From Alphaproteobacteria bacterium (GTDB lineage: Bacteria > Pseudomonadota > Alphaproteobacteria > Caulobacterales > Maricaulaceae), in the NCBI GenBank assembly GCA_024742735.1, contig JANSXV010000007.1, positions 1 through 64,000 on the forward strand: 64,000 nt of DNA, written 5' to 3'. The notes beneath the pieces are model-generated. The model was not told the origin of the DNA. It saw only the letters and a list, made by a program, of their open reading frames with translations, and did not search any database. Made by a program: the position numbers and the translations under genes. Below, piece after piece: positions 41,618 through 60,131 of the stretch; the stretch's first letter is position 1, and each line of letters begins with the position of its first letter.

Positions 41618-42124
41618 TTACCTGCGAATCCGCTCCAAGATCGCTTTGATCCCCGAGCTTGACCGCTTGTAAGTCACGCCCTCCGCTGCGATGCGCCCTG
41701 TCAAAAGGGCGCCCGCTTCGACGGCAATCTCCGAATACGATACCTCGCCCATTACTTTCGCGCCTTGTTTTAAATGAAGTCGGCCGGATACGGTCAGCTG
41801 GCCGCTGAATTCACCTGCGATAACGGCCTCTTCCACATTGGCTTCGCCGTGCACACGACCATTTTTATCGATTTCAAGATACCGCGAAGCAATGTACCCT
41901 TCAACACCGCCCGCGACAAAACAGGTTTCGCATTGATCAATTCGCCCTTCGACACAGGTCGACTTGCCGATTTCCATTGCGCCTTCTTGCACTACCGACG
42001 GCTGAGATTTCGATCTCGGCACAACGGACGCACCGTTCTGTCCCCTCGGCTCTGTGTAAGCCGATTCATGTTTAAAATCATGAGCTGAACCGATTCTTTC
42101 GGACATCGCATGGCCTTCAGGCAT
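41618..42124 (-). CDS. Bactofilin family cytoskeletal protein
   Basis: A 168-residue protein. Residues 1-55 are a disordered tail. The rest is the bactofilin beta-helix (DUF583): DKNGRVHGEANVEEAVIAGE, SGRLHLKQGAKVMGEVSYSE and EAGALLTGRIAAEG. Two features are unusual: a pair of cysteines (STCVEGRIDQCETC) at the start of the core and a basic C-terminal tail (SSGIKAILERIRR). Bactofilins polymerise at the membrane and organise stalks or cell shape in caulobacters. A TTTGTA-type palindrome lies 82-95 bases ahead of the gene, shared with the hfa and TPR-EAL genes. Confidence 0.8.
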   Translation of the reverse strand: MPEGHAMSERIGSAHDFKHESAYTEPRGQNGASVVPRSKSQPSVVQEGAMEIGKSTCVEGRIDQCETCFVAGGVEGYIASRYLEIDKNGRVHGEANVEEAVIAGEFSGQLTVSGRLHLKQGAKVMGEVSYSEIAVEAGALLTGRIAAEGVTYKRSSSGIKAILERIRR

Positions 42125-42205: not shown

Positions 42206-42219
42206 TTTGTAGCTACAAT
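42206..42219. promoter_or_regulatory. Palindrome TTTGTA-GC-TACAAT upstream of bactofilin
   Basis: One of three copies of a near-perfect TTTGTA-N2-TACAAA palindrome in the window; this one has a single mismatch at the last base. It sits in a very AT-rich stretch 82-95 bases before the bactofilin start. The gap 42125-42434 otherwise has a short direct repeat (CTTGATGCGTCG, twice near 42250-42270) and no gene. Confidence 0.55.
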
Positions 42220-42434
42220 TTTTTATCACATCGGTTTTCATGTGGGCTTGATGCGTCGGCACTTGATGCGTCGTGCGCCTGTGTGATTACCCGTCGCGTC
42301 GATATGAGGCATTAACAAAAGGTAGCCATCACCGGCAGGAACGTGCGAGGGGTACATCTCTTTTTTGGTTTTCTCCCCATCCAGACCCATTAGTTAGCCA
42401 AAATCGTTATAGGCAATTGAGGAGTGGCTAGATC

Positions 42435-43037
42435 ATGGACTGGCGCCTTGGAGATGCTATTTTTTGGATCATAAAGTCTTTATTGATTCCTCTGGCATTA
42501 TTTTTCCTAATTTTCATTTTGCCGGGCGTTGCAAATTCTGCCGCGAATAATTCCGGATCCGACCACGATGCCATATATTCGAGTTTGTCCGCGGAACGGC
42601 GATACAACCTTCAGAGCGCAATTTTGGGTGAAACTCTGTATAGTTCTTTCGTCAAGGCCTCGGTTGTTCGCGTATCTAATTCAATTGAATCAATCTCGGG
42701 CGATTCAATGCTGCACAATCAAAATTTGGATGCTCGGAATCAAAATTTCATAGTTATTGAATATATTGTTGAAAATCTCACAGCTCGCACAATTGGGTCC
42801 TTTAGGGCTCCGACTATCTTTATCACTCTTGACAACGGGCTGGCCGTACACACAGACAGCATGGCCTCTGAAATATTAAGAATCGAAAATAGCAATTATC
42901 GACCGCGAAATTTCGATATCGAACCATTAGAAAAATACAGGGACTTCTTAGTTTTCCCCGTTCCGCCAAACGCTGGGGTAAATTGCATAGTTGTGGAACT
43001 CGATAACTCTCGATACTGTGTAGATCATACACTGTAG
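42435..43037 (+). CDS. Hypothetical membrane-anchored protein, AT-rich
   Basis: A 200-residue protein I do not recognise. Residues 10-34 (WIIKSLLIPLALFFLIFILP) form a single membrane anchor or uncleaved signal. The remainder is a beta-rich periplasmic domain (NFIVIEYIVENLTARTIGSF, IFITLDNGLAVHTDS, FLVFPVPPNAGVNCIVVELD), loosely like DUF4352 domains. GAGGAG precedes the ATG. Its base composition is clearly poorer in GC than its neighbours, a sign of recent transfer. It lies alone between bactofilin and the flagellin gene. Confidence 0.55.
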   Translation: MDWRLGDAIFWIIKSLLIPLALFFLIFILPGVANSAANNSGSDHDAIYSSLSAERRYNLQSAILGETLYSSFVKASVVRVSNSIESISGDSMLHNQNLDARNQNFIVIEYIVENLTARTIGSFRAPTIFITLDNGLAVHTDSMASEILRIENSNYRPRNFDIEPLEKYRDFLVFPVPPNAGVNCIVVELDNSRYCVDHTL

Positions 43038-43239
43038 CGGTTGAAAATGTACTGTCACTCTCTTGAGGTGAAGACAGCGTTGAATTCATTTTAGCGGCGA
43101 TCAAGGCGCGCCAGTTGAAAGTGGTGAATCGTTCTATCCGCTTCAGCTGACTCGGTTTTGAAGACACAAAAAACGGCTGCCCTACCATGCAGCTTTTGGT
43201 TCTTCCTTGTCTGCTACTGTCGAGAAAAAGGTGGTCGGC

Positions 43240-44142
43240 ATGACTTTGATCAGCTCGAATTTGGGCGCCATGGCGTCGCTGCAGTCGCTTCGGGACACTG
43301 AGAGCCAAATTGCCCAAAGCCAGAGCCGGCTCAGCACCGGCCGCACGGTCACGTCTGCAAAAGACAGCGGGCACATATACGACATCACCCAGACGATGCG
43401 GTCCGATATTGGCGGGCTTCGGGTGGTCACCGCCTCCCTAGACAGAGCAGCTTCGGTTATTGATGTGACCATAGCCGGGGCTGAAGGTGTCCAAGACCTG
43501 CTCATAGAGATGCGTGAAGTGGCTTCGAAGGCTTCTGATACATCCCTGAGCGATACTGAAATCGCCAGTCTGAACCAGCAATGGCTTAAGCTGCAGGATC
43601 AAGTTAATCTGGTCGCGCGCAATGCTGAATTCGATGGCATCAACTTGCTTCAAGGCACGCAAAAGGCTGACCGCCGCGATCAAATTTGGTTCCGGTATCA
43701 GACAGGAACACCCGGCGAAACGGTCGGAGTCTATGCTGAGCCGATGCAGTGTACTATCGCAAGGACACCGCTGGGGTTCACCCTTGGAAGCGACCTCTAC
43801 AATCTGCCTCCCCATCTCGGCGCGACGCCGCACGAGGCGGCCCGATACTACGGCAATATCTTAGATAATGAGCTCAAAGAGGTGGCGGACTCACTTAGCC
43901 GCCTCGGCAGCCATGCAAGATACATCGGAATTTACAAACAGCTCACGAGCCAGCTCTCTGACACGCTTCAGGCTGGCATAGGGAACCTTATTGACGCGGA
44001 TATGGCCAAGAAAGAGCTCAGCCTACAGGCATTATCAATCGCAAATGCCACAGCCGGCGCCGTGATTGGGCTATTTGACAGGGCCCCTGAGCCGGGTGGA
44101 TTGGTTGCAGAATCGCGGCGGCTGCCCACTTCTCCCCAATGA
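43240..44142 (+). CDS. Short divergent flagellin
   Basis: A 300-residue flagellin. The N-terminal D0/D1 region has LISSNLGAMASLQSLRDTES, QSQSRLSTGRTVTSAKDSG and MREVASKASDTSLSDTEI. The C-terminal helix has MAKKELSLQALSIANATAGA followed by an unusual tail. The middle is short and carries no large insert. Starting at 43240 gives the normal flagellin N-terminus; the frame extends 11 codons upstream from TTG at 43207. It is not near flagellar assembly genes in the window. The odd C-terminus (APEPGGLVAESRRLPTSPQ) past the helix is not typical. Confidence 0.8.
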   Translation: MTLISSNLGAMASLQSLRDTESQIAQSQSRLSTGRTVTSAKDSGHIYDITQTMRSDIGGLRVVTASLDRAASVIDVTIAGAEGVQDLLIEMREVASKASDTSLSDTEIASLNQQWLKLQDQVNLVARNAEFDGINLLQGTQKADRRDQIWFRYQTGTPGETVGVYAEPMQCTIARTPLGFTLGSDLYNLPPHLGATPHEAARYYGNILDNELKEVADSLSRLGSHARYIGIYKQLTSQLSDTLQAGIGNLIDADMAKKELSLQALSIANATAGAVIGLFDRAPEPGGLVAESRRLPTSPQ

Positions 44143-44517
44143 CCTGGCCTAGAACATTAGCACCAGCCAAGATCGTAATATCCTCAGAGGATAAATCAGA
44201 GACAGGGCTAGCCCACTATCGCCGCCATCGCTGCATACGATCAATGACGATGGAGATTGTTGAAACGGTCGGCGTTGCGACCAAAACGGCGTCGTTAGTC
44301 TTACCCCATGCGCCCCCTGACTGGTGTCGCAAAAGCTCCTCACGCAGCAGTATCAGGGACCGAACCTCACCCGCGCCTTGAGGATGCGGCTTTCCCGCGG
44401 CACGGCCCGCCTTCCGCCCGAAAGTCAACAGAAAGCCCAATAGCCAGCAACCCAACAAAAACATCGGCGCTCATAAGCGCTTCAAGTTTGGATCGGCAAA
44501 GATCCCGGAGATCACCA

Positions 44518-45534
44518 ATGAGTGCATGCTTGCAATATCAAATGGATATTGCGCGACAAGCCGTCAGCTTTATGGCAGATCACGGCATAGCTCCAACCCC
44601 GGAGAACTTTGAGCTTTGGACGCTATACTTGGCGGGCGTTGACGAGGGACTGGGTGTCGCCGTGCAACAGCATCTAAATAGCGGGGGCCTCCTCGATGGT
44701 GCTTTCAGTGAAACTCTCTTTGGGCAGTTTGTGGGTCATAGAGATGCGGTGCGAGTCGCCACCGAGGCTGAAAGCACCGCCTCTAAAACGTTAAACCGGA
44801 TCAAGGAGTTGCTGAGCAAAGCCACGCTAGATCATCGCGAGTATGCCGTGTCGCTTGGCCGTGGCGCACAAAAACTAGAACGTTCGGGTGAGGTTAAACG
44901 CATTCGTGCGGCCATTTTTGATCTGATCCAGGCAAACCAGAAAATTGAGCGCCGTTCAGCCCATCTCGAACACGAGCTCCTTGACACGCTGAGCAGGATT
45001 GCAGGGCTGAACACTGATCTCGAGCGTCTGAAGGCGGAAACCCGTATAGATACGCTAAGCGGGCTGGCGAACCGTAAACGCTTCGACGAGACCCTTGCAC
45101 ACCTAGCCAGTAAGGCCGATGGGTGTCAGCGTCGGAGACTGACGGTCGTCATGGCGGACATCGATCACTTCAAAACCTTCAACGACACATGGGGCCATCA
45201 AGTCGGCGACCAGGTCATCCGTTTTGTGGCCAGCATCCTTAGGGCGGATGCCGGACCTGACTATGTGGTTTGTCGCTATGGGGGCGAGGAGTTCGCCATA
45301 ATCATACCCAACGCATCTTCGGGAGAGCCTGGCCTGTATGCGGAAACGGTCAGAAGGAAGGTCTGCGCAAAGCGGCTGACTCGGCGCAGCACGAAAGAGA
45401 AGCTTGGCGCCGTTACGATTTCGCTTGGCATTGCAAGCCATCGAAAGGGCGAGTCGGTGCAGGCCCTTGTCGCACGTGCGGATGCCAATCTTTACAGGTC
45501 TAAGAGAGACGGCCGAAATCAGGTCACGTTTTGA
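44518..45534 (+). CDS. Diguanylate cyclase (GGDEF domain)
   Basis: A 338-residue cytosolic protein. Residues 1-165 are helical, with a coiled-coil-like segment (QKIERRSAHLEHELLDTLSR), and resemble the N-terminal part of caulobacterial GGDEF proteins. The catalytic domain (about 175-335) has DIDHFKTFNDTWGHQVGDQV and the active loop RYGGEEF (255-259), so c-di-GMP synthesis is expected. The inhibitory R-x-x-D site just before it is absent (AGPD). The start at 44518 has GGAG in front; 44143-44517 upstream contains nothing I can support. Confidence 0.88.
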   Translation: MSACLQYQMDIARQAVSFMADHGIAPTPENFELWTLYLAGVDEGLGVAVQQHLNSGGLLDGAFSETLFGQFVGHRDAVRVATEAESTASKTLNRIKELLSKATLDHREYAVSLGRGAQKLERSGEVKRIRAAIFDLIQANQKIERRSAHLEHELLDTLSRIAGLNTDLERLKAETRIDTLSGLANRKRFDETLAHLASKADGCQRRRLTVVMADIDHFKTFNDTWGHQVGDQVIRFVASILRADAGPDYVVCRYGGEEFAIIIPNASSGEPGLYAETVRRKVCAKRLTRRSTKEKLGAVTISLGIASHRKGESVQALVARADANLYRSKRDGRNQVTF

Positions 45535-46071
45535 AATGCTTTTGACAGACCCGATCGCGAGACGCTGCTCTTCCATCAGTTCAAGACCGCCCCCCCCGAA
45601 CGAGACATGCGATTAGCCCTTGCGCCGCCGTGTTGGCTTGGCCAGGAGCTCAACGATCCAGATGCGCCCCCCCATCGCCTACGCAGCGCAGTGATCGTTG
45701 CATGAACGAGGGATGACCCGGGCCTAAGGCAGAGACTTATTTGGAGTCAGTTTTCTTATTCAGCGACGCAGATGTCGCTACAAAAATAAATTTCTTTTCA
45801 GCCTTCTAGCCGGCGCTACACATGGTATTGCGCGCGGCGGTGTTCGGCACACCTATCCTGTCGTTCACTGCGATACCAGTCCCCCATGCCTGACATCGCG
45901 ATGACCGCCGCGCGCGCTATCTCCCTTTTCACCGCCAAAAACAAAGGGCCGAGCGGCGCTCGGCATGAGATTTGTATGAACCAATAAAAAATGTGCGGAT
46001 GATACTCGCCGATATCCAGATCAAACCGATATCTCCGACCTTGCTTTACAGACCAATGCATCGGAAGCCTG
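45535..46071. other. Intergenic stretch without a recognised gene
   Basis: The stretch contains an inverted repeat AGCGAC-N6-GTCGCT near 45758 and an AT-rich patch (CTACAAAAATAAATTT) near 45778, possibly promoter sequence for the LysR gene. It has no coding frame with a recognisable product on either strand. Confidence 0.45.
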
Positions 46072-46992
46072 ATGGATCTCAAGCGCCTAAGATACTTTCT
46101 AGCCGTAGCGGAGAATGGCTCCATTTCCCGCGCCAGCGAACAAATCGGCATCACCCAGCAGGGACTCTCCAGGTCAATCCAGCTCCTCGAGGAAGAGTTG
46201 GGCGTCGCACTGATAGACCGCGGCCGAAACGGGGCGCGCTTAACGGTTGATGGGCGAGAGTTTGTCGGGCTCGCGCAATCACTCATCTCACGCTTCGACA
46301 GTGAAATTGACAGCTTTCTCAACAAAAAATCCACCCCAAAAATGCTTCGCATCGGACTGAGTCCAGCTTGGCTGCCCGGGCCGGGCTTTTCACCAATAAA
46401 ACTGGCGCTTGACCGCGTCGGGGTCCAGCAGGCCTCGATTTCTGTCAAAAACCACCACGATCTTCTTAGCGACCTGAGTTCAAACGAGATCGATGTGGCT
46501 GCGACGATCCGGTTCTTTGGGGATCGCGACCAGCCGAATTTTCAGCGAATTGGAAGCATGAGCTACTTCGTGGTGGGTCACGATCGGGACAGCGTCAATA
46601 AGATCGCCGAAGACGTAAAGAGCCTAGCCGATCATCCACTGATTTTTGGCCAGCGCGCGCCACGTTTCGAACAGGAAATCGCGGATAGATGCATTGAGAG
46701 CACGGGGAGAGTGCCGGTCGCCCGCTTCCGCCTTTCAGAGCGCTCGATCGCGAAGGAGATTTTGCAATCATTTGATACTGCACTATTCTTCCTCTCCGAC
46801 TCCCTTGAACACGCTGAAGGGTATTGGGGGCTGCCATGCCAGACAGTCAGGTGGTTACCTGAGGTGATTGATTATGGCATCGTGCCGGGCTCAGGTCAGG
46901 GACATGGCTATGACCTTAAATCGCTGGCGGAATATATCGGACGGTTCTGCATAGCGGCACAGGGGCCAAAGCAGACGGCAGGCGCGGTTTGA
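46072..46992 (+). CDS. LysR-family regulator
   Basis: A 306-residue LysR protein. Its N-terminal helix-turn-helix is typical (LKRLRYFLAVAENGSISRAS, QIGITQQGLSRSIQLLEEEL). The effector domain begins near residue 92 (MLRIGLSPAWLPG). The rest (DLLSDLSSNEIDVAATIRFF, SYFVVGHDRDSVNKIAED) is the usual two-lobe fold. It is followed by the PAS-domain gene after 13 bases, so the two may be one transcript. The targets are unknown. Confidence 0.85.
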   Translation: MDLKRLRYFLAVAENGSISRASEQIGITQQGLSRSIQLLEEELGVALIDRGRNGARLTVDGREFVGLAQSLISRFDSEIDSFLNKKSTPKMLRIGLSPAWLPGPGFSPIKLALDRVGVQQASISVKNHHDLLSDLSSNEIDVAATIRFFGDRDQPNFQRIGSMSYFVVGHDRDSVNKIAEDVKSLADHPLIFGQRAPRFEQEIADRCIESTGRVPVARFRLSERSIAKEILQSFDTALFFLSDSLEHAEGYWGLPCQTVRWLPEVIDYGIVPGSGQGHGYDLKSLAEYIGRFCIAAQGPKQTAGAV

Positions 46993-47005
46993 GGCAGGTA
47001 TCAGA

Positions 47006-48034
47006 ATGGCCGAACACCCAGTTATTGCATCGCTGATTGAAGCGATCCCGCAGCCTTCTGTCCTTCATAGCCCCTCTGGAGAGATTGTCGCAGCCAATAG
47101 AAAAGCTGCGGACGTGCTCGGTTTAACGGTTGAAACGCTTTTGGGACGGGAGTCGTTTGACCCTCGATGGCGAGCTTTGAATGGCGAAGGGGATGAACTG
47201 CCCGGGCAAAACCACCCCGCCATGCTTGCGATTGAGAAGAATGCGCCGGTCGGCCCATCGATAATGGGAGTTGAACTGCCCACTGGAGAACGGCGGTGGA
47301 TTCGTGTCACCGCAACCCCAGTTGAATGGCCGATCGAAACTGAGCGCGTTGGATGCCTCGCATCGTTCAGCCTCATTCAGCAGCCGCACGCTTTGCAGCA
47401 TCAAGAGCCGGCTTTCATAGAGCAGGCGTCAAGGTCGAACTTGTTTCACCTGATGTCCAATGAGCTAGAGAAGCTGCGTTCAGCATTGCAGTCAGCGAGG
47501 GTTGCTTTTGCCCGACGAGACACCGAGGGCGCTGATGTGGCGTCTAGTATTGCTACGTCCTCTATCGACAATATCGCAAAATGGCGTGACTTATACGTCG
47601 CTGCCTCCTGGATTTTGAATCCCACCCGCGCTGACAGCGTCAGATCCGATTTATCAAAGATTGATAGAACAGCGGGCGTTTTTATTGATTTTGATGGGTT
47701 TTCCATGGAGGGCTCTAATAACCTATATATCGGTGCATTATTTATTTATAGATTTCTGAATATCATAAGCGATATCGACGTAGGTTTTACAGTTCGATCC
47801 AATATTGACGATATAAAAATTTCTAATCTTATCTGCTACTCTGATGTTAGATACTCAGACATTCATAGATTTCTCGGGGAACACATTTACAATGTTGTTT
47901 CCTTAGAATCTCACGCCTCACTTAAGCAGATGTGCTGCCGGGAGTTATTCGATCTTATTTCCCAATATTTAGATTTCGGGTTCATTTTTATTAATGAAGA
48001 TCAAACTTTTCAGGTAAAAATATTTCCTAAATAA
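47006..48034 (+). CDS. PAS-domain protein with unknown C-terminal domain
   Basis: Residues 1-130 form a PAS domain (LIEAIPQPSVLHSPSGEIVA, LGLTVETLLGRESFD, GERRWIRVTATPVEWP). Residues about 145-200 are a helical segment without a clear phospho-accepting histidine (LFHLMSNELEKLRSALQSAR). The C-terminal part (200-342) is unlike any family I know (FIDFDGFSMEGSNNLYIGAL, YLDFGFIFINEDQTFQVKIF) and is encoded by AT-rich DNA, so it might be a remodelled kinase ATPase region or a separate sensor. Gene order suggests it works with the LysR regulator. Confidence 0.6.
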   Translation: MAEHPVIASLIEAIPQPSVLHSPSGEIVAANRKAADVLGLTVETLLGRESFDPRWRALNGEGDELPGQNHPAMLAIEKNAPVGPSIMGVELPTGERRWIRVTATPVEWPIETERVGCLASFSLIQQPHALQHQEPAFIEQASRSNLFHLMSNELEKLRSALQSARVAFARRDTEGADVASSIATSSIDNIAKWRDLYVAASWILNPTRADSVRSDLSKIDRTAGVFIDFDGFSMEGSNNLYIGALFIYRFLNIISDIDVGFTVRSNIDDIKISNLICYSDVRYSDIHRFLGEHIYNVVSLESHASLKQMCCRELFDLISQYLDFGFIFINEDQTFQVKIFPK

Positions 48035-48447
48035 ACAGCATTCCTTCTGTCTGTGACAGGGCCATTTCTCACCGGCAAGGTCGTCTTCCAGGCCGATCAC
48101 AGGTCACGCTGACCTAATCAACAAGGTTGCGCGCACAATCATAGCCGGTCGAACCTCACGCTCTAAGCGTAGGGGCCATAGAGTTTCTAACAACGACCGC
48201 CTTGGTGTGGCTCATTGCAGGTCCGCAGCATGATGGCATGGCGCTTGCACCCCAATCGTGAATATGATCAGTTTGGCGCATCGGCCCTCATTGGTTGGCG
48301 TATTGTTAATGCAACAAACATATAATTTTGTGCTTCATGGAAGAAAGCTGTACTAGGATATCCAGACATTTACTCTGTTTGGAACATTGAGTTCAAATCT
48401 TGGTTTTGGTCGACCATGCTTCGTGAACACGTTTCACGGAGGCTGCC
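48035..48447. other. Promoter region of the autotransporter gene
   Basis: No gene is seen. The last 200 bases are AT-rich. A hairpin CGTGAA-CACGT-TTCACG (about 48421-48438) directly abuts the ribosome binding site GGAGG of the autotransporter gene. It could hide the site and so control translation, but this is inference. Confidence 0.4.
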
Positions 48448-51300
48448 ATGGTCAATTACCTCAAATCCTCGGTCGCGGGCGCAGCGCTGCTGACGGCTCT
48501 GGGCGCGCCAGCGCTTGCCGCTTCACCGCCCCATTCGAACAACGGCGCAGAAGACTACGAATTCGTTCTGCCGAGCTACGGCAACATCAGCGCATTCAGT
48601 GGAGCAACCAATCCGTTTTATGGTGGGATCAATCCACAGTACGGAAACATCTCACCGTTTTGGGGTAATATCTCGGCGTTCTGGGGCGAGATTGATCCCT
48701 TCTATGGGAACATCAGCGCGTTCTGGGGCAATATCAGCGCATTCGAAGGCGACATTGGTCCATTTTGGGGCAATATTAGCGCCTTCTGGGGCGAGATCGG
48801 TCCTTTCTGGGGCAATATCAGCGCTTTCTGGGGCAATATCTCCGCCTTTACCGAGGCGGATTTTGTCAAACTTGCTTCAGATCTCGATACCCTTTTCGCG
48901 GAAGCCGACGCGGTGTTCGGTCCGGCGATCGAGGCCGCCACCGGCCAGTCCATAGAAGAGGCCTTCCTGGCTGAGCTGAAGGCGCGCTACGGCATCGATA
49001 CCTCCGATCCGCACGCGTTGGCCGAACTCGATGCCGAAGAGCGCTCCGCCTTCTTCCTGGAATTCTATGACTCCTTGATGGGCTACACCGGCGCGGACCG
49101 GGTTGATCACTGGATGCCGGCCATCGGCTGGACGCCGGCGCTGGCTCAGCGTGTGGGCGGAGCGTCAGGGGTCACCGTGGGCATCGTGGACTTCAGTCTG
49201 CCTTACGGAATGCCAGGCCTGAGAGGCTCGGCAAACAACACCAACCAGTATCTTGATTTCAATCATGGCATTGCAGTGGCTGAGCTCATTGGCGCGGACA
49301 TGGACGGCCAAGGCCTTATGGGCGTCGCGCCGAATGCCGCACTGCGAGTTGAAAACCCCTTTGACGAAACGCTGACAGCAAACTGGGCCGACGTTCGGCG
49401 TAGTCTGGATCGGCTATTGCCCCAGTCGGATATCGTCAATCTGTCTCTTGGCGTTCCTGGATCTGCATTCAGCAGCGCGTGGGCGGACGTGTTTTCTCAT
49501 CGCAAGATCGCACGTCATGCCTCCGACACCCTGTTCGTCTTCGCCGCGGGCAATGACGGCGTCGTGCAGACGGCGGATGTTGACTGGAGCAGTGTCGGCG
49601 AGGTTGAGAACCTGCTGATCGTGGGCTCGGTCAATCCAGCTGGCGAAATCTCCTCCTTCTCCAACCGGCCCGGCGAGGCCTGCCTGACCACGGGCGGGAC
49701 CTGCCAGGAGGGCCATCGCCTGATGGACCGCTTCCTGGTCGCGCCGGGCGAGCTGATCCTGGTTCCCGATGGGGAAGGCGGCGTGGTGCGCATGTCCGGC
49801 ACCTCCTTCGCAGCCCCGCTGGTCTCCGGCGCCGCGGCGCTGGTGCTCGGCCGCTGGAACTGGCTGGAGCCCGGCGACGTCGCCGAGGTCCTGCTGCGTT
49901 CGGCTCGTGATCTGGGCGAGCCCGGCGTCGACCCGGTCTATGGCTGGGGTCTGCTCGACGTCGAGGCCTCATTCCGGCCGTTCGACCTGTCGAACCTCTA
50001 TCATATGGGCGGCGACGGCAGGTCCGGCGGCCAGGGCGAATACGGCTTCGTCAATGGTCAGGTGCTGGCCAACGTAGACGGTGAATACGTCACTCTTTAC
50101 GAGGACTTCCGCGATACGCGGCGCGACTTCCAAGTGAGCGTGGACGATATCAATTTCGGCGCGGACGACAATGCAGCGACCAATGACGGCGCTCAGCAGT
50201 ACATCGAAGAGCAGAACCGCGGAAACCGAGGCAACCAGAACCGGGGCAACGGAAACGGTAGGAAGAAGTTCAGCTTCGCCGCTGACAGCACCCATGTCAT
50301 CGCCCGCTCCGGAGACGTCACTGTGACCAGCTTCGCTTCGCGTCTGGACATGGGTGAGAGGGCCACGGACGGCGACCTGCTGTTCCAGGCCGGATTCGCG
50401 ATCGAGAACGCGGTGACCGGCGCGGCTCTGCGCTTCGGCCATGGCGAAGGCGCTCTGGCCTTCTCGTCGGGAACCGGTTTCGGTCTGTCCAGCGACCATC
50501 GCCCGGCCACGGGCGGGGTCAACCCGGTGCTTGGCTTCGCCTCTGGCGGCGCCTATGCGGCCGGCGAGATGGCGCTGACGGACCGGTTGGGTCTGGCCGT
50601 CATGATGACGGCCAAGCGTGACGGCTATCGCTTCGCCAACCCGATCACCGGAGAAAGCACCGAGCTGTTCACGACGCTGGACGCCTACTCGGCGGGCGCT
50701 GTGGCCGCCGAGCTGCGCGGCCGCGTCAGTGACCGGGTCTCGCTGAGCGCGGGCTATACCCGCCTTGACGAGGCCGAAGCGCTGCTGGGCGCTCAGGGTC
50801 TTGGCGATTTCGCCTTCGCCGACGCCGTCACCGACGCGGTGACGTTCGGCGCCGAGGTCGAGCTGCCCTTCGCGCTGTCGCTGGCCGGTTCGGCCACGAT
50901 GGGCCGCACCCGGGCCGGGGGCGAGACCCGCTCGGCGCTGCGCCTGAGCGAGGCGATCCTGTCGACCGCCTTCCAGGTCAGCGTGCAGCGGGCCGGCGTG
51001 TTCGGCGAAGCCGACGCCCTGCGCTTCAGCCTGATCCAGCCGCTCCATGCGGAGAGCGGGGCGATCGACTACACCGCCAGCGTGGTGACGGATCGCTCGA
51101 CCGGAGCGCTGGAGTCCGAGACCCGGCGCTGGGCGCTCTCGGGCGAGCGTGATCTCGCCGCCGAGCTGCTCTATGCCGCGCCGCTGCTCGACGGGCGGGC
51201 GGGAGTCAGCCTCTACACCCGCGTCGAGGCGCCTGAAGCGCGCTTCGCCGGCGGGGAGGCCGAAGTCGCGGGCGGCTGGCGGATAGACCTGGACTTCTGA
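48448..51300 (+). CDS. Subtilisin-like (S8) autotransporter with FWG repeats
   Basis: A 950-residue exported protease. The signal peptide is about 1-25. Residues 44-134 are some 13 heptapeptide repeats of the form (N/E/D)I(S/G/D)(A/P)F(W/Y)G. The S8 domain (about 210-500) has Asp248 in GIVDFSLP, His273 in FNHGIAVAELIG, the oxyanion Asn in FAAGND and Ser453 in MSGTSFAAPLVSGAA. An RGN-rich linker (about 590-610) leads to a C-terminal barrel-like region (about 640-950) ending WRIDLDF with a terminal phenylalanine. It should display or release a surface protease. A strong terminator follows the gene. Confidence 0.88.
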   Translation: MVNYLKSSVAGAALLTALGAPALAASPPHSNNGAEDYEFVLPSYGNISAFSGATNPFYGGINPQYGNISPFWGNISAFWGEIDPFYGNISAFWGNISAFEGDIGPFWGNISAFWGEIGPFWGNISAFWGNISAFTEADFVKLASDLDTLFAEADAVFGPAIEAATGQSIEEAFLAELKARYGIDTSDPHALAELDAEERSAFFLEFYDSLMGYTGADRVDHWMPAIGWTPALAQRVGGASGVTVGIVDFSLPYGMPGLRGSANNTNQYLDFNHGIAVAELIGADMDGQGLMGVAPNAALRVENPFDETLTANWADVRRSLDRLLPQSDIVNLSLGVPGSAFSSAWADVFSHRKIARHASDTLFVFAAGNDGVVQTADVDWSSVGEVENLLIVGSVNPAGEISSFSNRPGEACLTTGGTCQEGHRLMDRFLVAPGELILVPDGEGGVVRMSGTSFAAPLVSGAAALVLGRWNWLEPGDVAEVLLRSARDLGEPGVDPVYGWGLLDVEASFRPFDLSNLYHMGGDGRSGGQGEYGFVNGQVLANVDGEYVTLYEDFRDTRRDFQVSVDDINFGADDNAATNDGAQQYIEEQNRGNRGNQNRGNGNGRKKFSFAADSTHVIARSGDVTVTSFASRLDMGERATDGDLLFQAGFAIENAVTGAALRFGHGEGALAFSSGTGFGLSSDHRPATGGVNPVLGFASGGAYAAGEMALTDRLGLAVMMTAKRDGYRFANPITGESTELFTTLDAYSAGAVAAELRGRVSDRVSLSAGYTRLDEAEALLGAQGLGDFAFADAVTDAVTFGAEVELPFALSLAGSATMGRTRAGGETRSALRLSEAILSTAFQVSVQRAGVFGEADALRFSLIQPLHAESGAIDYTASVVTDRSTGALESETRRWALSGERDLAAELLYAAPLLDGRAGVSLYTRVEAPEARFAGGEAEVAGGWRIDLDF
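48577..48850 (+). repeat. Heptapeptide-coding tandem repeat (FWG repeat)
   Basis: About thirteen 21-base units code for variants of NISAFWG, alternating with EIGPFWG, EIDPFYG and similar. Codons differ between units, so the repeat is kept at protein level and is not a recent DNA slippage. The spacing of exactly seven residues, each with one large aromatic pair, suggests a regular surface-binding helix or solenoid. Confidence 0.85.
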
Positions 51301-51330
51301 ACCAGAAGGGCCAGTCGCGACCCCCGACGA

Positions 51331-51363
51331 GGACCCGTCCGCAATGCGTCGGGCGGGTCCTTT
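51331..51363 (+). terminator. Rho-independent terminator after the autotransporter gene
   Basis: GGACCCG (51331-51337) pairs with CGGGTCC (51354-51360), with further pairing inside the loop (GTCCG/CGGGC region), followed by TTTCG. It lies 30 bases past the stop at 51300 and ahead of the TPR-EAL promoter. Confidence 0.75.
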
Positions 51364-51403
51364 CGTCACCATCGAGCGCCACAGATGGAGAAAAAGGGGC
51401 ATG

Positions 51404-51417
51404 TTTGTATCTACAAA
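51404..51417. promoter_or_regulatory. Palindrome TTTGTA-TC-TACAAA upstream of the TPR-EAL gene
   Basis: A perfect palindrome 75-88 bases ahead of the TPR-GGDEF-EAL gene, at nearly the same distance as the copy before bactofilin. The third copy is in the hfa intergenic region. A dimeric regulator is expected to bind it. Confidence 0.6.
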
Positions 51418-51491
51418 TTAATTCGATCGCCCCATTTCGGAACAGTAATGAAGCCTAGTCATGCTCCTGCTCGTTTTGAGGGGGAGCTGAC

Positions 51492-54080
51492 ATGCGTCGA
51501 ATCCATTTTTTTGCGGCCGCCTTGTTGTGCGCATCCAGCCTGTCGCTGTCACAGCAGCAAATCGCAAATGCTCAGACCTCAAGCTATTCAGCGCAAATCG
51601 AGGTCGCCCAAGGCGCCATGATGCGTGACCCCAGCGCCGCCCTGGAAGCCGCGCAACAAGCTGCACAAAGTCTAGCTGACGAAACGCCGGACGGGGATCT
51701 TGCCGAGATGTGGGCGAGATCGGAATGGCTACAGGCAGAGGCCCTATACCGGCTGGGCCGATCAGCCGAAGCTGCGCCAATCGCAGATGCAGCATTGGCG
51801 CGCCTCGGCAACACCAATCCGCCAACAGCGCTTCTAGCAGACCTGCAGGTCGCGCGTGGCCGAATCGCCACGGCATTGGGCGACTTCGAAACAGCATTCG
51901 TCAGCTTCATTCAAGGATACGATGTCTTCTTGGGTTTGGACGCGCCCCGCAAACAAGCCCTCGTCCTCCTCGAGATTGGCACAATCTATTTCAAGGCTAA
52001 TCAGCATAGCCGGGCCTTGGAATATGCCGACGACGCCATAGGGCGCTTCTCTGACCCAATGATAAGTTTGGCGGCTCAGAACAACCGAGCGAATGCGCTG
52101 CGTGAACTTGGACGGCATAGTGACGCGGTACAGGCTTACGAGCAGGCCCTAGAGGAAGCGGAAGTTTTGGGCAGCCCCGTGCTGGAAGCCCGCATCCTTA
52201 ACAATATCGCCGCTCTGCACGTGAATTTCGGCGACTTTGACGCCGCCGAGGCCGCGCTTGCCGAGGCGGACGCCCGCGTTGAAGGCATGGGTTCGGGAGA
52301 ATGGTCGCGCTTCCTGGACGGCGTGCGCGGCCAGATCGCGCTGGCCCGGGGCGAGCCGGCGCTGGCGCGCAGCTATCTGGAGCGCACGTTCGAAGGCGTT
52401 CCGCTGGACGCCTCGTCGCAGAACTTCGTCGAATTCCATGAAGCCGCTGTGCGGGCCTACGCCGGGCTCGGCCAGTACCGCGCCGCCCTGGATCACCTGT
52501 TCGCGTTCAAGCGTCTGGACGACGAGGCGCGCAATGTCGCCGCCTCCGCCAACTCCGCTCTGCTCGGCGCTGAGTTCGAGTTCGCCGAGCAGGACCTGCA
52601 GATCCAGCAACTGCGCGCTGAGCGCCTGGAGCAGGATCTGTTGCTTGCAAGCGAGCGTGCACGCGGCAACACCATGGCTCTACTTGCCGTCATCGCCCTG
52701 ATCGTCGCGGTGCTCATTGCAGGTTTCGTGCGTTATCGCACCGAAACGGCACGCAAGCGAGCGCTGGCCAAGATCCTTTACTTTGACGCGGAGACCGGAC
52801 TGCTTTCCCGCGCAGGCTTGGTTGAACGAATTTGGCGCTCTGACCTAAAGGCAGTTCAAGCCGCAATAATGACTTTCGAGATCGAAAGCTTCACTCAATT
52901 TCAGTCAGCGTTCGGCTTCTCGGCCGCGATCGAGTTGAAAACGCAACTAGCCGATCGGCTTTCTCGCTCAAATGGCGTTCATTTTGTCGCCGTCGTTGGG
53001 CCAGGGCTTCTTTCAATATGCTTCGCCATACCTGCGGCAAAGCAGCAGCCAGCCAGCGTGCTTTCTCAGTACGCCTTGGGCCTCAAGCAGCAGCTTCAGA
53101 AGCCCGTGAAGATCCATGGAACCGAGGTGGAGATTGTTGCGGGCTGTGGCATCGGACAAATATCGCTTGAAGAGACCGATCGAGAGATTATCGAGAGCTC
53201 AATAAAAAATTCGATCGTGGCGATTACACAGTCGGACAATACAAAATCTACCCCCGCAATTTTCAACGAATCTATCTCAAGCGATTTCAGCAGAAATATT
53301 ACTATTGTATCAGAATTTAGAAATGCTGCTACGAGTGGACATGTAAAAATGCATTATCAGGGCAAGATGGATCTTCATTCAAGAAAAATTACAAGCGCTG
53401 AAGCTCTAATGCGCTGGAATGATCCAGAGATGGGCTATGTTTCCCCTGACCGCTATATACCAGTCTTGGAGCGCGCAGGCAAAATCCGTCATCTTACCCA
53501 ATGGTCTATTGAGTCAGTAATCGCTGATCAGGATCGCTTTTCCGACGCTGGGCAACCAACGCCTGTAGCCGTAAACGTCTCGGCCTGCCTCCTTGGAGAC
53601 AAGGCTTTCTCTGAGTATGCTCTTCAAGCGGCTCGGTTATCGTGTTCAGGTCTCATCTTCGAAATTACTGAGACTGGGATGATGGAGGATATTCAGAGCT
53701 CCATGGAAACGCTGTCCGCATGGAAGCGTGCCGGAATTAAGATTTCGATCGACGATTACGGATCGGGCCAGTCCTCATTAGCCTATATCAAAAACATACC
53801 GGCTTCAGAATTGAAGCTGGATCGCTTTTTCGTTGATTGTATATCGACGTCCGAACGCGACAGACACATGGTTAAGTCGACAGTGGACCTCGCCCACTCT
53901 CTTGGAATGACGCTGACGGCCGAAGGTGTCGAAGATGACGAGACCACAGAGATCCTGCGGGGTATCGGATGCGACACCGTTCAGGGCTTTGGAGTTCACC
54001 GACCTGCGAGCGCTGCCGACTTCATCGAATTCATGAAGCAGTCTGACGCCAAAGACAAAAGCAATGTCATTTGGATTTAG
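51492..54080 (+). CDS. TPR - membrane - degenerate GGDEF - EAL protein
   Basis: An 862-residue protein. The signal peptide is 1-27. Periplasmic TPR repeats span about 35-370 (LYRLGRSAEAAPIADAALAR, YFKANQHSRALEYADDAIGR). A coiled coil leads to one membrane helix (395-418, MALLAVIALIVAVLIAGFVR). A GGDEF domain that lost its active loop follows (about 430-580), then an EAL domain (about 610-855). The EAL domain keeps SAEALMRW (E637), VAVNVSA, FEITETGMMED, SIDDYGSGQSSL, ELKLDR and TAEGVED, so c-di-GMP hydrolysis is expected. The TPR part would sense a periplasmic protein. The promoter carries the TTTGTA palindrome. Confidence 0.88.
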   Translation: MRRIHFFAAALLCASSLSLSQQQIANAQTSSYSAQIEVAQGAMMRDPSAALEAAQQAAQSLADETPDGDLAEMWARSEWLQAEALYRLGRSAEAAPIADAALARLGNTNPPTALLADLQVARGRIATALGDFETAFVSFIQGYDVFLGLDAPRKQALVLLEIGTIYFKANQHSRALEYADDAIGRFSDPMISLAAQNNRANALRELGRHSDAVQAYEQALEEAEVLGSPVLEARILNNIAALHVNFGDFDAAEAALAEADARVEGMGSGEWSRFLDGVRGQIALARGEPALARSYLERTFEGVPLDASSQNFVEFHEAAVRAYAGLGQYRAALDHLFAFKRLDDEARNVAASANSALLGAEFEFAEQDLQIQQLRAERLEQDLLLASERARGNTMALLAVIALIVAVLIAGFVRYRTETARKRALAKILYFDAETGLLSRAGLVERIWRSDLKAVQAAIMTFEIESFTQFQSAFGFSAAIELKTQLADRLSRSNGVHFVAVVGPGLLSICFAIPAAKQQPASVLSQYALGLKQQLQKPVKIHGTEVEIVAGCGIGQISLEETDREIIESSIKNSIVAITQSDNTKSTPAIFNESISSDFSRNITIVSEFRNAATSGHVKMHYQGKMDLHSRKITSAEALMRWNDPEMGYVSPDRYIPVLERAGKIRHLTQWSIESVIADQDRFSDAGQPTPVAVNVSACLLGDKAFSEYALQAARLSCSGLIFEITETGMMEDIQSSMETLSAWKRAGIKISIDDYGSGQSSLAYIKNIPASELKLDRFFVDCISTSERDRHMVKSTVDLAHSLGMTLTAEGVEDDETTEILRGIGCDTVQGFGVHRPASAADFIEFMKQSDAKDKSNVIWI

Positions 54081-54130
54081 CGTCTAATTCTAATGACCGT
54101 TGGTGACTGACCGCATCTCGCACCAAGCAT

Positions 54131-54161
54131 GCCGCCCAGAGGCTTACCATCTCTGGGCGGC
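54131..54161. terminator. Bidirectional hairpin between convergent genes
   Basis: GCCGCCCAGAG (54131-54141) and CTCTGGGCGGC (54151-54161) are perfectly complementary around a 9-base loop. It sits between the TPR-EAL stop (54080) and the stop of the hfaD-like gene (54171), and likely ends both transcripts, although neither side has a strong U-run. Confidence 0.65.
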
Positions 54162-54170
54162 GACTGGTTG

Positions 54171-55265
54171 CTAAAACCCGTCGGGCAAGTTGCTGATTGA
54201 GGCGGAGTTGCCGATTGCGGCCGCTGTGAGGCTCACCGAGCCGGTCACATCGTGGAGATGGATGTTGGCCGTCGCCCCGGTATAGGCTCGATTGAGCTGG
54301 GTGCTGTTTACGCCGAGCGCGGCCGTAGCTGGCAGCGTTGAGACGCTCAGGGAGTTGGAGATCGCCGCAGTGGTCGAGGTGAAGTCGCCTTCAAGGGCGT
54401 TGATTTCCACATTAGAGAACGCTTGGGGATCATAGCCGGCAAACTGCCAGGTATTGATCTGCACAGTGTCAGCGCCCTCAACGTCGAATGACGCAGAATT
54501 GCCGAGCGCAGCTGACGTGAGTTCGACCGCGCCAACCACGTCGTTCAGGTCCGCATTAAGCGTCGAGCGCGAGTCGCCACGAAAGAACTGGCGGCTGTTC
54601 GCAGACCAGTCGTCGAAGCCGCCGACTGCATCAATTTGATCCAGATTTCCCAGCTCCCCCTCACAAGCGCCTTCGTTGGCCGGGTCACATGAGTTCAGAT
54701 CCCCAATGTTCTCGTCAGCTCCGCCGACCGCCAGATCACCGCGCACGTTCACGCTTAATGAGTTGGCGATCGATGCGGCCGTTGCCGATACCGCAACATC
54801 ACCAGCACTGGGAGCGATGATACTGCCGCCTTCGATCATCATGTCCGAATAGAAGCGCCCCCAATGCGTAAACTGGGTGTTGCTTACCTGTGACGCACCA
54901 CCGTCGCCCTCAAACGCGTCGATGGAGATGGAGGCGGAGTTGCCGATGGCTGCGGTTGTCGCTTCCAGCGAACCCGCCGTGTCGCTGATGTCCACATACA
55001 TGTCAGCGGTCGCATTCCGCCAGCTGTCCTGAAAATTGCTGACATTCGCGGATCCACCGAGTTCGGCGGAGAACGAGTTGCCGATTGCGGCTGCGGTCAT
55101 GCTGACGCCTTCGGTGACGTTTCGCACATGGCCGTTCAGCTCGGCGCGGGTTTCAGCCCAGGTGCGCTGCTCGTTGCGGACCTGGTTTTCCTGTTGGGCC
55201 AGGGCCGGCGCCGCAACAGCGCAGGCGGCGGCCCCGGCAAGCAGGATGCTCATTTGCTTTTTCAT
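54171..55265 (-). CDS. hfaD: Curlin-repeat surface protein, HfaD-like holdfast anchor
   Basis: A 364-residue secreted protein with a signal peptide (1-23, LLAGAAACAVAAPALA). It has six copies of a motif like (L/V)(T/S)AAAIGNSxS, spaced about 50-60 residues apart (VSMTAAAIGNSFS, LEATTAAIGNSAS, VSLTAAAIGNSAS and others), each beginning a beta-rich unit. The same motif ends the HfaA protein encoded divergently. AAGGAG precedes the ATG. In Caulobacter, HfaA, HfaB and HfaD anchor the holdfast to the stalk, and HfaD is normally encoded in the same direction as hfaAB. The name is by similarity and position, with moderate certainty. Confidence 0.65.
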   Translation of the reverse strand: MKKQMSILLAGAAACAVAAPALAQQENQVRNEQRTWAETRAELNGHVRNVTEGVSMTAAAIGNSFSAELGGSANVSNFQDSWRNATADMYVDISDTAGSLEATTAAIGNSASISIDAFEGDGGASQVSNTQFTHWGRFYSDMMIEGGSIIAPSAGDVAVSATAASIANSLSVNVRGDLAVGGADENIGDLNSCDPANEGACEGELGNLDQIDAVGGFDDWSANSRQFFRGDSRSTLNADLNDVVGAVELTSAALGNSASFDVEGADTVQINTWQFAGYDPQAFSNVEINALEGDFTSTTAAISNSLSVSTLPATAALGVNSTQLNRAYTGATANIHLHDVTGSVSLTAAAIGNSASISNLPDGF

Positions 55266-55426
55266 GACGATCTCCTTGGTTCATGTCATCGCCGCCGGAC
55301 ATGGCGACCCCCTCCACGCCGCAAGAACCAGGCGCACAAAATCGAGCGTTTCGCATTTACCGTTTCAGGCCGATCGGGCATCGGAGCAGCCCAGTCAGGA
55401 CGCAAACACCCCATTAAACATCGTTA

Positions 55427-55444
55427 ATTTTGTAGATACAAAAT
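55427..55444. promoter_or_regulatory. Extended palindrome in the hfa divergent region
   Basis: ATTTTGTA-GA-TACAAAAT is perfect over eight bases per arm, the best copy of the TTTGTA-N2-TACAAA element. It lies 162 bases ahead of the hfaD-like start and 222 bases ahead of hfaA, and could serve both directions. The surrounding 55266-55665 stretch is AT-rich and has no other gene. Confidence 0.65.
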
Positions 55445-55665
55445 AAATATAGATCGTCCCCAAACAGGGCATGCATGTCCTTTTTTGGGATCGAGTTTCT
55501 GTTATATAGTAAACTAATTGTTACATTTAATGATGCGATGCGCATTTTCAATTCAAATGGCCGATTTCGCCATCATAACATTCAAACCACAATGCATGGC
55601 ACATCAATTGCGCTGGTCTGTCCTAGATGTCCCAAAATCAACAAGGGACGGTTGGAGACAGTCCG

Positions 55666-56079
55666 ATGGGCACAGGCAATCGCATTCTGAGCGCGGTGTT
55701 CGCAGCTTTCGCAGCCAGCGCGCTCAGCGCAGCAGCGCAAGCTGAGCAACCCCGGCCAGGCTGGAGCGAGCCCTATGGCTGGTCCAGCCGCCAGGCGGCT
55801 GAGCCCTACCGGCCTGAAAGCCGGGACGCAGCCGGCAACCGCATCCTCTACAACGGCCGGCCCGTATCGCTGCCCAGCGGGCAGGCGGGGCCATCCAGCC
55901 GCGCCGCCAGCTTCAACAGCGGCGTAAGCAGTCTGGGCCCCAGCACTCTGTCTCGCACCACGCTGACCGCCGCCGCGATCGGCAACAGCGTCGACATCCG
56001 CAATGTCCGCAACAGCACCATCATCATCAATCAGCACAATACCGGGCGCCAGAGCGCCACGGTGAACCGTGGAGGATAA
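55666..56079 (+). CDS. hfaA: HfaA-like holdfast anchor protein (curlin-like)
   Basis: A 137-residue secreted protein; Caulobacter HfaA is of similar size. Signal peptide AVFAAFAASALSAAAQAEQ. A proline- and serine-rich middle is followed by one curlin-like unit, TTLTAAAIGNSVDIRNVRNS then TIIINQHNTGRQSATVNRG. I start at 55666, with GGAG eight bases before it; an ATG at 55627 is less likely. It is three bases before hfaB, whose CsgG-type pore should export it to the cell surface. Confidence 0.75.
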   Translation: MGTGNRILSAVFAAFAASALSAAAQAEQPRPGWSEPYGWSSRQAAEPYRPESRDAAGNRILYNGRPVSLPSGQAGPSSRAASFNSGVSSLGPSTLSRTTLTAAAIGNSVDIRNVRNSTIIINQHNTGRQSATVNRGG

Positions 56080-56082
56080 GTC

Positions 56083-57318
56083 ATGACCCCTCGCATGCTC
56101 CTCGCAACCACAGCGCTTTGCCTTGCAAGCCTGTCCGCATGCGCGACATCTCAGACCCAACGCCCGGAACCGGTGACGCCGCTGCGCGGCCCACAGGAGG
56201 CCGTGGTGGAGACAGACTACAGCGCCGCGCTGCTATGCCTGGGGCGCTATGTCGGCGCTCAGCCCTTCCCTGCTCCGAGGATCGCGATCGGCCATATCAG
56301 CGACATGACTGGCGCAACAGACTACTTTAACGGAGCCCGCGTCACTCAAGGCGCGTCGCTGATGGCGATGACCGCCCTTGCCGATGCAGGCGTTCGCGTG
56401 GTCGAGCGCTTCGACATGGGCGTGATCCAGGCTGAGATGAATTACGCTCAGACTGGGCTTGTGCGCGACTCCGACACGCAGCTCCGCGAACTCAGCCCCG
56501 GCATGCTCCAGGGGGTCGATCTCTACATCGTGGGCGGCCTGACCGAGTTCAATCCCAACATCCGCTCGCGCGGAAGCGACCTTTATGGCGCCGATGAGCG
56601 CGCAACCGGCGCGGCGGCCTCGATCGGACTGAACACGCAGACGATCGACGTTGCGATGGATCTGCGGCTCGTCGATGCGACTTCCAGCGAAGTGCTGGCC
56701 GTGCGCGCCCTGCGCAAGCAGATCATCGGTCGGGAGATCGAACTTGGCGTGTTCGAGTTCATGTCAGGCGGCGTTGTCGATATCGCAGCAGGTCAGCGCG
56801 CCCTCGAACCTGTGCAGACCGCCGTACGCACCATGATCGATCGGGCGATCTTCGAGTTCGTGGGGTCGCTCTATAACCTTCCCGCGCATGTATGCCTGGA
56901 TGGTCGAGAGGCCCCCGTACAAAGCGCCCCCACCCCAGCTCGAGGCAGACTGATCGAGCCACAGAACCAACCCTCGCAAACCATGCCAAGCGAAACCCCG
57001 CAAGCCCCCAACCATCGCCCCGCGCAACAAGCGCCAAATGCAATGCGGGGCCCAGCCGCCGCGAACGAAGTCGGGATGCATCTCGGGTCATTCAGGACTG
57101 AAGGGCATGCGCAACTCCGGTGGCATGAGCTACAGATGAGACACCCCGAAGCGCTTGAAGATCTACAACAACTTGTCGTGCCCGCTCAGATAACCGGTCA
57201 AGGTCAAGTCTACGGCCTCCTAGCCGGACCATTTTATTCAATGGAATCCGCAGAGCGTCGGTGCGAGGAATTGAACGCACGGAGCCAGTACTGCCGCGCC
57301 ACGCGCTTAACGCCTTAA
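56083..57318 (+). CDS. hfaB: HfaB (CsgG-family) secretion lipoprotein with SPOR domain
   Basis: A 411-residue outer-membrane lipoprotein. Lipobox LASLSACATSQ. The CsgG/HfaB domain spans about 40-275 (RIAIGHISDMTGATDYFNGA, ERFDMGVIQAEMNYAQTGL, VDLYIVGGLTEFNPNIRSRG, IDVAMDLRLVDATSSEV). It forms a pore for HfaA and HfaD. A proline- and glutamine-rich linker (about 280-325) leads to a C-terminal SPOR domain (about 330-411: VGMHLGSFRTEGHAQLRWHE, GLLAGPFYSMESAERRCEEL), which binds denuded peptidoglycan. GGAGG precedes the ATG. The SPOR fusion could place the pore at a division or pole site. Confidence 0.85.
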   Translation: MTPRMLLATTALCLASLSACATSQTQRPEPVTPLRGPQEAVVETDYSAALLCLGRYVGAQPFPAPRIAIGHISDMTGATDYFNGARVTQGASLMAMTALADAGVRVVERFDMGVIQAEMNYAQTGLVRDSDTQLRELSPGMLQGVDLYIVGGLTEFNPNIRSRGSDLYGADERATGAAASIGLNTQTIDVAMDLRLVDATSSEVLAVRALRKQIIGREIELGVFEFMSGGVVDIAAGQRALEPVQTAVRTMIDRAIFEFVGSLYNLPAHVCLDGREAPVQSAPTPARGRLIEPQNQPSQTMPSETPQAPNHRPAQQAPNAMRGPAAANEVGMHLGSFRTEGHAQLRWHELQMRHPEALEDLQQLVVPAQITGQGQVYGLLAGPFYSMESAERRCEELNARSQYCRATRLTP

Positions 57319-59589: not shown

Positions 59590-59591
59590 TG

Positions 59592-60131
59592 TTATGATAA
59601 AATTATATTGATTTCGAAAATATGAGAGCCAGATTTATTATCATACGAGACCGTACCGTCGAGCTCGAAGTGGTCTAACAAACCGGCTAGCAGACCCGAT
59701 ACGAACTCCGAAAGCCCCTCTCTCGGTGATATGTATTCGACAATGAAGTTATTTTCTTCCGATCTTATAAGATCAAATTTTGGTAATGTCGCATTCGGCA
59801 TCGAGATAGATAGCGATTCGTGCATCCTGTTTATGTTCGACAGAAAATCAGTGAGATTTCGCCCGGCCATTGACAGTATTTTTGAATATTGCGTTTTGGA
59901 TACATGTTGAACCCAATAACGACCGAATAAATTTAAGAGACGGTCGTGCTCCAAATTCATTTCACTGGCTACGGCATCTATAAGCGCATAGGTATGACCG
60001 TCATCGTAATGATAACCGCTGATGAAATGCTCTTCCGTTAAGCCACTGTTTCTAATTATATCATCCCAGCCGTCGGCCCCGAGCGCCTCTGTCGCCATCT
60101 GCCTGGCGGCAACATGAATCATTCCATACAT
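59592..60131 (-). CDS. H-NOX heme-nitric oxide sensor
   Basis: A 179-residue heme protein. It starts MYGMIHVAARQMATEALGAD, close to the canonical MYG-I start, so I use 60131 although the frame opens at 60167. The proximal heme ligand is H104 (NINRMHESLSI), and the Y-x-S-x-R heme-propionate motif is YISPR (Y133, S135, R137). It should bind NO and signal through the HNOBA kinase just downstream. No Shine-Dalgarno is obvious. In other bacteria such pairs tie NO to c-di-GMP and biofilm; the holdfast genes nearby fit. Confidence 0.9.
   Translation of the reverse strand: MYGMIHVAARQMATEALGADGWDDIIRNSGLTEEHFISGYHYDDGHTYALIDAVASEMNLEHDRLLNLFGRYWVQHVSKTQYSKILSMAGRNLTDFLSNINRMHESLSISMPNATLPKFDLIRSEENNFIVEYISPREGLSEFVSGLLAGLLDHFELDGTVSYDNKSGSHIFEINIILS

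Follow-up and report, generated by a model that had tools for sequence, protein, structure and literature searches.

A short inverted repeat, TTTGTA-N2-TACAAA, recurs before genes for surface structures and for turnover of cyclic diguanylate (c-di-GMP) in a 64,000-nucleotide stretch of DNA, hereafter the window, from an alphaproteobacterium of the Maricaulaceae (assembly GCA_024742735.1, contig JANSXV010000007.1, positions 1 to 64,000; the contig is termed C22 and the genome G000). The palindrome is real and lies far beyond chance expectation. Its location, not its genome-wide total, is strongly non-random, with the sites concentrated in one island that carries paralogues of the hfa holdfast genes. 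The repeat is very probably the operator of an island regulon, as predicted from its placement. The fuller reading, with a probability of roughly 0.7, is that it would be the operator of an island-specific dimeric regulator controlling the accessory holdfast-like genes as a unit.

Distribution of the palindrome

Three copies of the palindrome had been listed in an earlier note on this DNA, at 42206, 51404, and 55427 (the last with 8-base arms). Their coordinates and sequences were re-read and found correct, and two weaker sites, at 43157 and 45971, are extra to them (Table 1). With up to two mismatches allowed, the window holds five matches against 0.32 expected from dinucleotide shuffles, none of 100 of which reached five. 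The intergenic DNA of the cluster is richer in A+T than the window (53% vs. 61% GC), and for this reason a segment-wise null was also run, in which each intergenic segment was re-drawn from its own dinucleotide make-up. Within these 3,678 bp, five sites stand against 0.085 expected (0 of 400 redraws reached five).

Across the whole genome (3.23 Mb), sites with at most one mismatch number three, all of them those of the earlier note, compared with one for a reversed-pattern control. At two mismatches there are 11 sites vs. 12 for the control, and five of the 11 fall inside a single 13.2-kb stretch (binomial 5e-10, to be taken as a guide); the genome as a whole is therefore not enriched, whereas the location is. 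When the three sites listed earlier are set aside, two of the remaining eight still lie in the stretch (binomial 5e-4, likewise a guide). Open reading frames (ORFs) and intergenic status were assigned by a simple ORF caller. By this measure all five stretch sites are intergenic, and five of the other six lie inside called ORFs, one of them barely. The whole-genome scan for promoter preference that had been proposed as a check has thus been run, and it found the location non-random and every stretch site intergenic.

All three main sites contain the core TGTA-N2-TACA, and the longer core TTGTA-N2-TACAA is found at 42207, 51405, and 55430. The central dinucleotide is TC at 51404 and GA at 55429. 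Several of the sites immediately precede an A+T-rich, -10-like stretch. The dyads stand alone, and no contiguous second half-site was seen in the flanks inspected around the five sites. A role as a hairpin or terminator was considered and rejected by reading, as six A+T-rich base pairs closed by a 2-base loop would not make a workable hairpin.

The island and the canonical hfa locus

To judge from profile scores, the hfa genes of the window form an accessory set, and an intact canonical set is present elsewhere in the genome. Canonical HfaB, HfaA, and HfaD lie side by side on another contig of the genome, C26, with 416.4, 74.3, and 127.6 bits, all above the NCBIfam cut-offs, and the island proteins all fall below these equivalog cut-offs (Table 1). 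Relatives of the canonical HfaB (C26:142241) occur in 14 of the 15 genomes of the genus sample and share 42–44% identity with the island protein. At the canonical locus every match to the palindrome has four or more mismatches, and none of the own-genome sites with two or fewer mismatches lies near it. The proposal of a surface-attachment regulon therefore needs narrowing. What stands is a promoter-region motif over surface-structure, bactofilin, and c-di-GMP-turnover genes that is non-randomly placed and recurs in three congeners; what does not stand is its generality, the motif being confined to one accessory island and missing from the canonical hfa genes. If the reading is correct, a genome can carry, next to its canonical hfa system and apart from it, a holdfast-like anchor in the form of an accessory island under its own control.

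Related islands in the genus

Among the 14 other genomes of the genus, close relatives of the island's CsgG-SPOR protein are found only in G002 (70% identity), G011 (55%), and G012 (56%). These three genomes, together with eight non-congeneric genomes carrying hfaD-like genes, were scanned with a relaxed pattern, TTGTANNNACAA. In the own genome three of its four positions lie in the island, and in the congeners the island takes two of four genomic positions in G002, four of seven in G011, and two of five in G012 (binomials, again guides, of 1.7e-4, 2e-7, and 1e-3, respectively). The four G011 island copies were found blind, in DNA unseen when the pattern was chosen, the G002 and G012 copies having been seen earlier. 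Five of the eight island copies of these congeners are intergenic. Counted over whole genomes and both strands, the pattern and its reversed control give 9 vs. 5 in G011, 6 vs. 5 in G012, and 4 vs. 12 in G002; in the congeners too, what stands out is the location alone.

One preserved site is that of the divergent hfaD/hfaA region, where a promoter block containing TTAA-N6-TTAA, the palindrome, and ATATAGATCG is shared with G002 (Table 1), and flanking stretches are less conserved (32 of 73 and 45 of 138 columns identical). Between the two genomes the palindrome changes from TTTGTAGATACAAA to TTTGTAGGAACAAC, with three substitutions, of which one falls in the free centre. A CtrA box beside this site is not claimed; CtrA boxes require a spacing of N7, and the conserved spacing here is N6.

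Outside this pair no such site was found at the hfaD loci examined. The hfaD copies of G011 and G012 have no motif copy, and none of 27 hfaD-homologue loci from 23 genomes outside the genus (approximately 1.5 kb of flank each) has one with at most one mismatch. In the eight scanned genomes outside the genus, every copy is either on a different contig from an hfaD homologue or more than 15 kb away from it; G207 and G088 each have one at about 16–20 kb. The test of conservation upstream of orthologues suggested in the earlier note has thus given a divided answer, with the hfaD/hfaA site kept in G002 and not found at the other loci. Since that site is kept in G002 and not elsewhere, conservation appears from these comparisons to be at the level of the island within the genus, individual sites turning over, and not gene by gene. 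The only exact match in 40 relatives, in G013 (L004), was set aside; its contig, 4 kb long and A+T-rich, showed no gene recognisable as belonging to an island.

A further recurrent arrangement is found at the island's LysR-type regulator gene and its neighbour encoding a PAS protein. In G001, G011, and G012 a motif copy adjoins the PAS-LysR pair, 69–74 bp before a conserved ORF for a 24-residue peptide (MRDQ.GK.FF...LGG; membrane-type by eye) that runs towards the PAS gene (L259:631-702 in G001, L159:7203-7274 in G011, and L043:5397-5326 in G012). The G001 copy was seen at the LysR locus, the relaxed genome-wide scans of congeners having covered G002, G011, and G012. Preceding the peptide-ORF site is an EAL gene in G011, an EAL fragment at a contig end in G001, and a TPR-EAL gene in G012. 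Searches of the window and of the other own-genome stretches examined gave no copy of the peptide.

Proposed circuit and its candidate regulator

In the proposed circuit, one dimeric transcription factor would bind the palindrome and control together the promoters of the bactofilin, flagellin-like, LysR, TPR-EAL, and hfaD/hfaA-B genes. The factor would be dedicated to the island, since good sites are absent from the rest of the genome. Sites placed just before a -10-like stretch would suit repression through occlusion of RNA polymerase, the direction of control being a guess; a scan of three promoter regions with the sigma-70 consensus gave 0 promoters in each. If the circuit exists as proposed, the sites name the promoters of a small dedicated adhesion system, and a single DNA probe would suffice to fish out its regulator.

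The leading candidate for the binder is the LysR-type regulator with its PAS partner, which may also control its own gene through the site 87 bp before its start (two mismatches), a possible autoregulatory site. That LysR binds the palindrome is a tentative assignment, short of even odds, and LysR appears a likelier binder than any other single protein. It is the sole regulator seen at 41.6–63 kb, and its gene is linked to the putative targets. Relatives matched over most of their length occur in four of the 15 genus genomes (G000, G001, G011, and G012), and each of these LysR-bearing genomes has motif copies in or beside the island. The matched G001 stretch shows one stop codon in the search alignment, yet a 328-codon ORF is present there. 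A LysR search of named genomes returned 62 loci, of which only L197 (isolate RI_41) was near full-length, and this is the G001 contig itself (WGNG01000021.1); the other 61, shorter or less similar, were not used. For the PAS protein, a search of 200 genomes of the order gave only partial matches outside the own genome, in 24 genomes.

Two other regulators of the contig were considered and set aside. A LuxR-type response regulator at C22:75724, which has a kinase-like neighbour and lies inside the bracket of insertion sequence (IS) elements described below, has no close counterpart in G002, G011, or G012 (best 32–34% identity), and a TetR-type gene at C22:93025 lies outside that bracket.

Evidence against the reading and alternative explanations

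Several observations weigh against an island operator bound by LysR. The own-genome total does not exceed that of the reversed control (11 vs. 12), and that of G002 is well below it (4 vs. 12). Part of the data was already known when the limits of the island and the relaxed pattern were fixed, and it is for this reason that the binomials serve as guides. One island copy in G011 (715952) and both in G012 lie inside small ORFs, possibly spurious. In the G002 alignment the palindrome keeps 15 of 18 columns, no better than the surrounding block, and conservation is likewise high next to the hfaD start (63 of 75 columns). Other points touch LysR itself. Its standing as the sole regulator seen applies to 41.6–63 kb, the proteins of window 1–40 kb lying outside the scan, and the own-genome protein shares only 33–36% identity with its counterparts in G011 and G012. 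The usual LysR consensus is T-N11-A, with an odd centre, and a symmetric T-N11-A is not in the site, an even 14-bp dyad giving only T-N10-A and T-N12-A. G002 has no LysR relative (best E-value 2.4e-9, over the helix-turn-helix part only) and nevertheless has sites both at hfaD/hfaA and upstream of the subtilase gene. The G002 sites are weaker (no TTGTANNTACAA), and the contig ends inside the subtilase gene, so that the locus may be incomplete. The candidacy of LysR is unproven because G002 keeps these weaker sites without it.

The same observation favours the most substantial alternative, a genuine contender that stops somewhat short of an even chance, in which the binder is encoded elsewhere, for example as a ribbon-helix-helix, GntR-type, or TetR-type protein recognising TTGTA-N2-TACAA, and LysR is a mere neighbour, perhaps a target. 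The dyad matches the RelB operator half-site TTGTAATTACAA (PMC2812701) and includes the HutC core TGTA-N2-TACA (PMC12977541), and in G009, G011, and G012 motif copies outside the island are found close to where a toxin-antitoxin module begins. It would be unusual, however, for an unlinked regulator to have no further good site in the genome; UTRA (HutC-type) proteins are missing from G002 although the motif is present, and no ribbon-helix-helix-like protein was noticed by eye, without a profile scan, in 194 small island ORFs. Much less weight attaches to the other two alternatives. Accidental clustering of A+T-rich palindromes, in an island that is itself rich in A+T and was acquired horizontally, would account for the base composition of the intergenic DNA and for genome-wide totals that equal the control, but is nearly refuted by the segment-wise null, by recurrence in three congeners, and by the conserved block in G002. 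Serine recombinase sites have a 2-bp centre, and the island is IS-flanked with the centres of 51404 and 55429 in inverted order; were these palindromes recombination or transposition sites, an inversion between the two would swap the TPR-EAL and hfaD promoters. This is highly improbable, as the arms span just 6–8 bases, the centres differ, the five sites stand before different genes in flanks that look unrelated, and none of the island proteins scanned proved to be a serine recombinase.

Gene content of the island

The palindrome sites and the genes around them are listed in Table 1.

Table 1. Palindrome sites, conserved promoter block, and genes of the island (window coordinates).
Feature	Coordinates	Strand	Sequence or basis	Position or remark
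Bactofilin (PF04519)	41618..42124	-	Pfam	
Palindrome, one mismatch	42206-42219		TTTGTAGCTACAAT	Between divergent bactofilin gene and gene of unassigned family; 81 bp from bactofilin ORF start
Protein without Pfam match	42435..43037	+		Membrane segment apparent by eye; gene divergent from that of bactofilin
Weaker site, two mismatches	43157-43170		TTTGAAGACACAAA	36 bp upstream of flagellin-like ORF
Flagellin-like protein (PF00669)	43207..44142	+	Pfam	
GGDEF protein, probable diguanylate cyclase	44308..45534	+	Profile scan	
Weaker site, two mismatches	45971-45984		TTTGTATGAACCAA	87 bp upstream of LysR-type gene
LysR-type transcriptional regulator	46072..46992	+	Profile scan	Leading candidate binder
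PAS protein	47006..48034	+	Profile scan	LysR partner; pair kept in G001, G011, G012
Large repeat-bearing protein, subtilase domain	48448..51300	+		Autotransporter-like by reading
Palindrome, perfect	51404-51417		TTTGTATCTACAAA	74 bp upstream of TPR-EAL start
TPR + EAL protein, probable c-di-GMP phosphodiesterase	51492..54080	+	Pfam/NCBIfam	
HfaD-like accessory paralogue	54171..55265	-	24.1 bits	NCBIfam cut-off 100
Conserved promoter block	55413..55490		59 of 78 columns identical	Own genome and G002
Palindrome, perfect	55429-55442; 8-base arms 55427-55444		TTTGTAGATACAAA	Divergent hfaD-like/hfaA-like intergenic region; 163 bp from hfaD-like start, 184 bp from hfaA-like start
HfaA-like accessory paralogue	55627..56079	+	40 bits	NCBIfam cut-off 50
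HfaB/CsgG-like secretion channel, added SPOR domain	56083..57318	+	261.6 bits	NCBIfam HfaB cut-off 300

Beside the hfa paralogues, at window positions 57973-60167, an H-NOX (haem-NO-binding) gene adjoins a hybrid histidine kinase gene, a pair that makes a nitric oxide input to attachment possible. Downstream, from window position 61560 to about C22:69708, lie tandem flagellin-like paralogues, the last ones apparently fragmented. A 368-residue protein without Pfam match (C22:72972-74078, L005:8972-10078) has relatives in the G002, G011, and G012 islands, with several in G011, one copy of which has TTGTATCTACAA upstream. Paralogues of the LuxR-type response regulator are found on C22 at 75724, 112645, and 116214, the first followed by a histidine kinase-like gene.

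Two IS6-type transposase genes on the same strand, at window positions 40854-41555 and C22:89713-90414 (L006:5713-6414), are 87% identical in DNA over 806 bp, and the approximately 48 kb between them includes the island, a layout that resembles a composite transposon. Also within the bracket, at C22:78495-88560 (L005:14495 to L006:4560), the gene for a giant protein in which 13 stretches match cadherin-like repeats precedes genes of ABC transporter, HlyD-type, and outer-membrane efflux proteins; the set resembles a large adhesin accompanied by a dedicated type I secretion system. A more ambitious picture, which is rather unlikely, is that the IS-bracketed region is a mobile island carrying a second holdfast-like anchor with a private LysR-PAS circuit, c-di-GMP enzymes, the H-NOX/hybrid kinase pair, and the operator from species to species. 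It would then amount to a spare adhesin switched independently of the main holdfast.

Comparison with known systems

Local operators and their regulons are a well-known type of arrangement, while this island circuit appears to be undescribed; among the best matches in the open-access literature, no paper was recognised as naming the site in these bacteria. The earlier statement that no regulator is known for such a site proved too broad, since the core is described in other bacteria. TTGTA-N2-TACAA corresponds to a half-site of RelB, one relO half-site being exactly TTGTAATTACAA (PMC2812701). relO needs two contiguous 12-bp half-sites, whereas the island dyads are single, and the island proteins scanned include no relBE-like pair. 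A toxin-antitoxin module of the genus itself carries related sequence. In G011, G012, and G009, TTGTAGCTACAA lies near the start of a brnT/brnA module (L163:5460-5483, L164:5449, and L260:5785), in G011 in tandem with TTGTAACGACAA. Two of these genes were scanned, the G009 antitoxin being BrnA (PF14384) and the G012 toxin BrnT (PF04365) by Pfam. The position of these copies near the start of brnT/brnA hints that an antitoxin of the genus can use the same dyad.

The operator of HutC (GntR/HutC family), TGTA-N2-TACA, has the same palindromic core and 2-bp centre as the island sites, and HutC is reported to bind the promoter of a c-di-GMP phosphodiesterase gene involved in biofilm formation (PMC12977541). 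UTRA proteins occur in 13 of the 15 genus genomes, those of the own genome lying on another contig (C24), and HutC, the best-known regulator with this core, was rejected as the binder, the family having no member in motif-bearing G002. In Caulobacter, RtrA and RtrB (XRE family) and RtrC control holdfast development through promoter motifs, the RtrC site being a pseudo-palindrome; RtrC has 113 chromosomal peaks vs. the 3–5 sites found here (PMC9648850 and PMC10688885). In a paper on LdtR, the letters of the motif occur in primers only.

In arrangement there is a parallel with LysR-type regulators that have sites in their own and neighbouring promoters. Unlike them, the island has an even dyad without a symmetric T-N11-A, and its counterpart in G002 keeps sites without a LysR gene. 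Like them, it has the regulator gene inside the cluster, a site before the regulator's own start, and the predicted targets in the same cluster.

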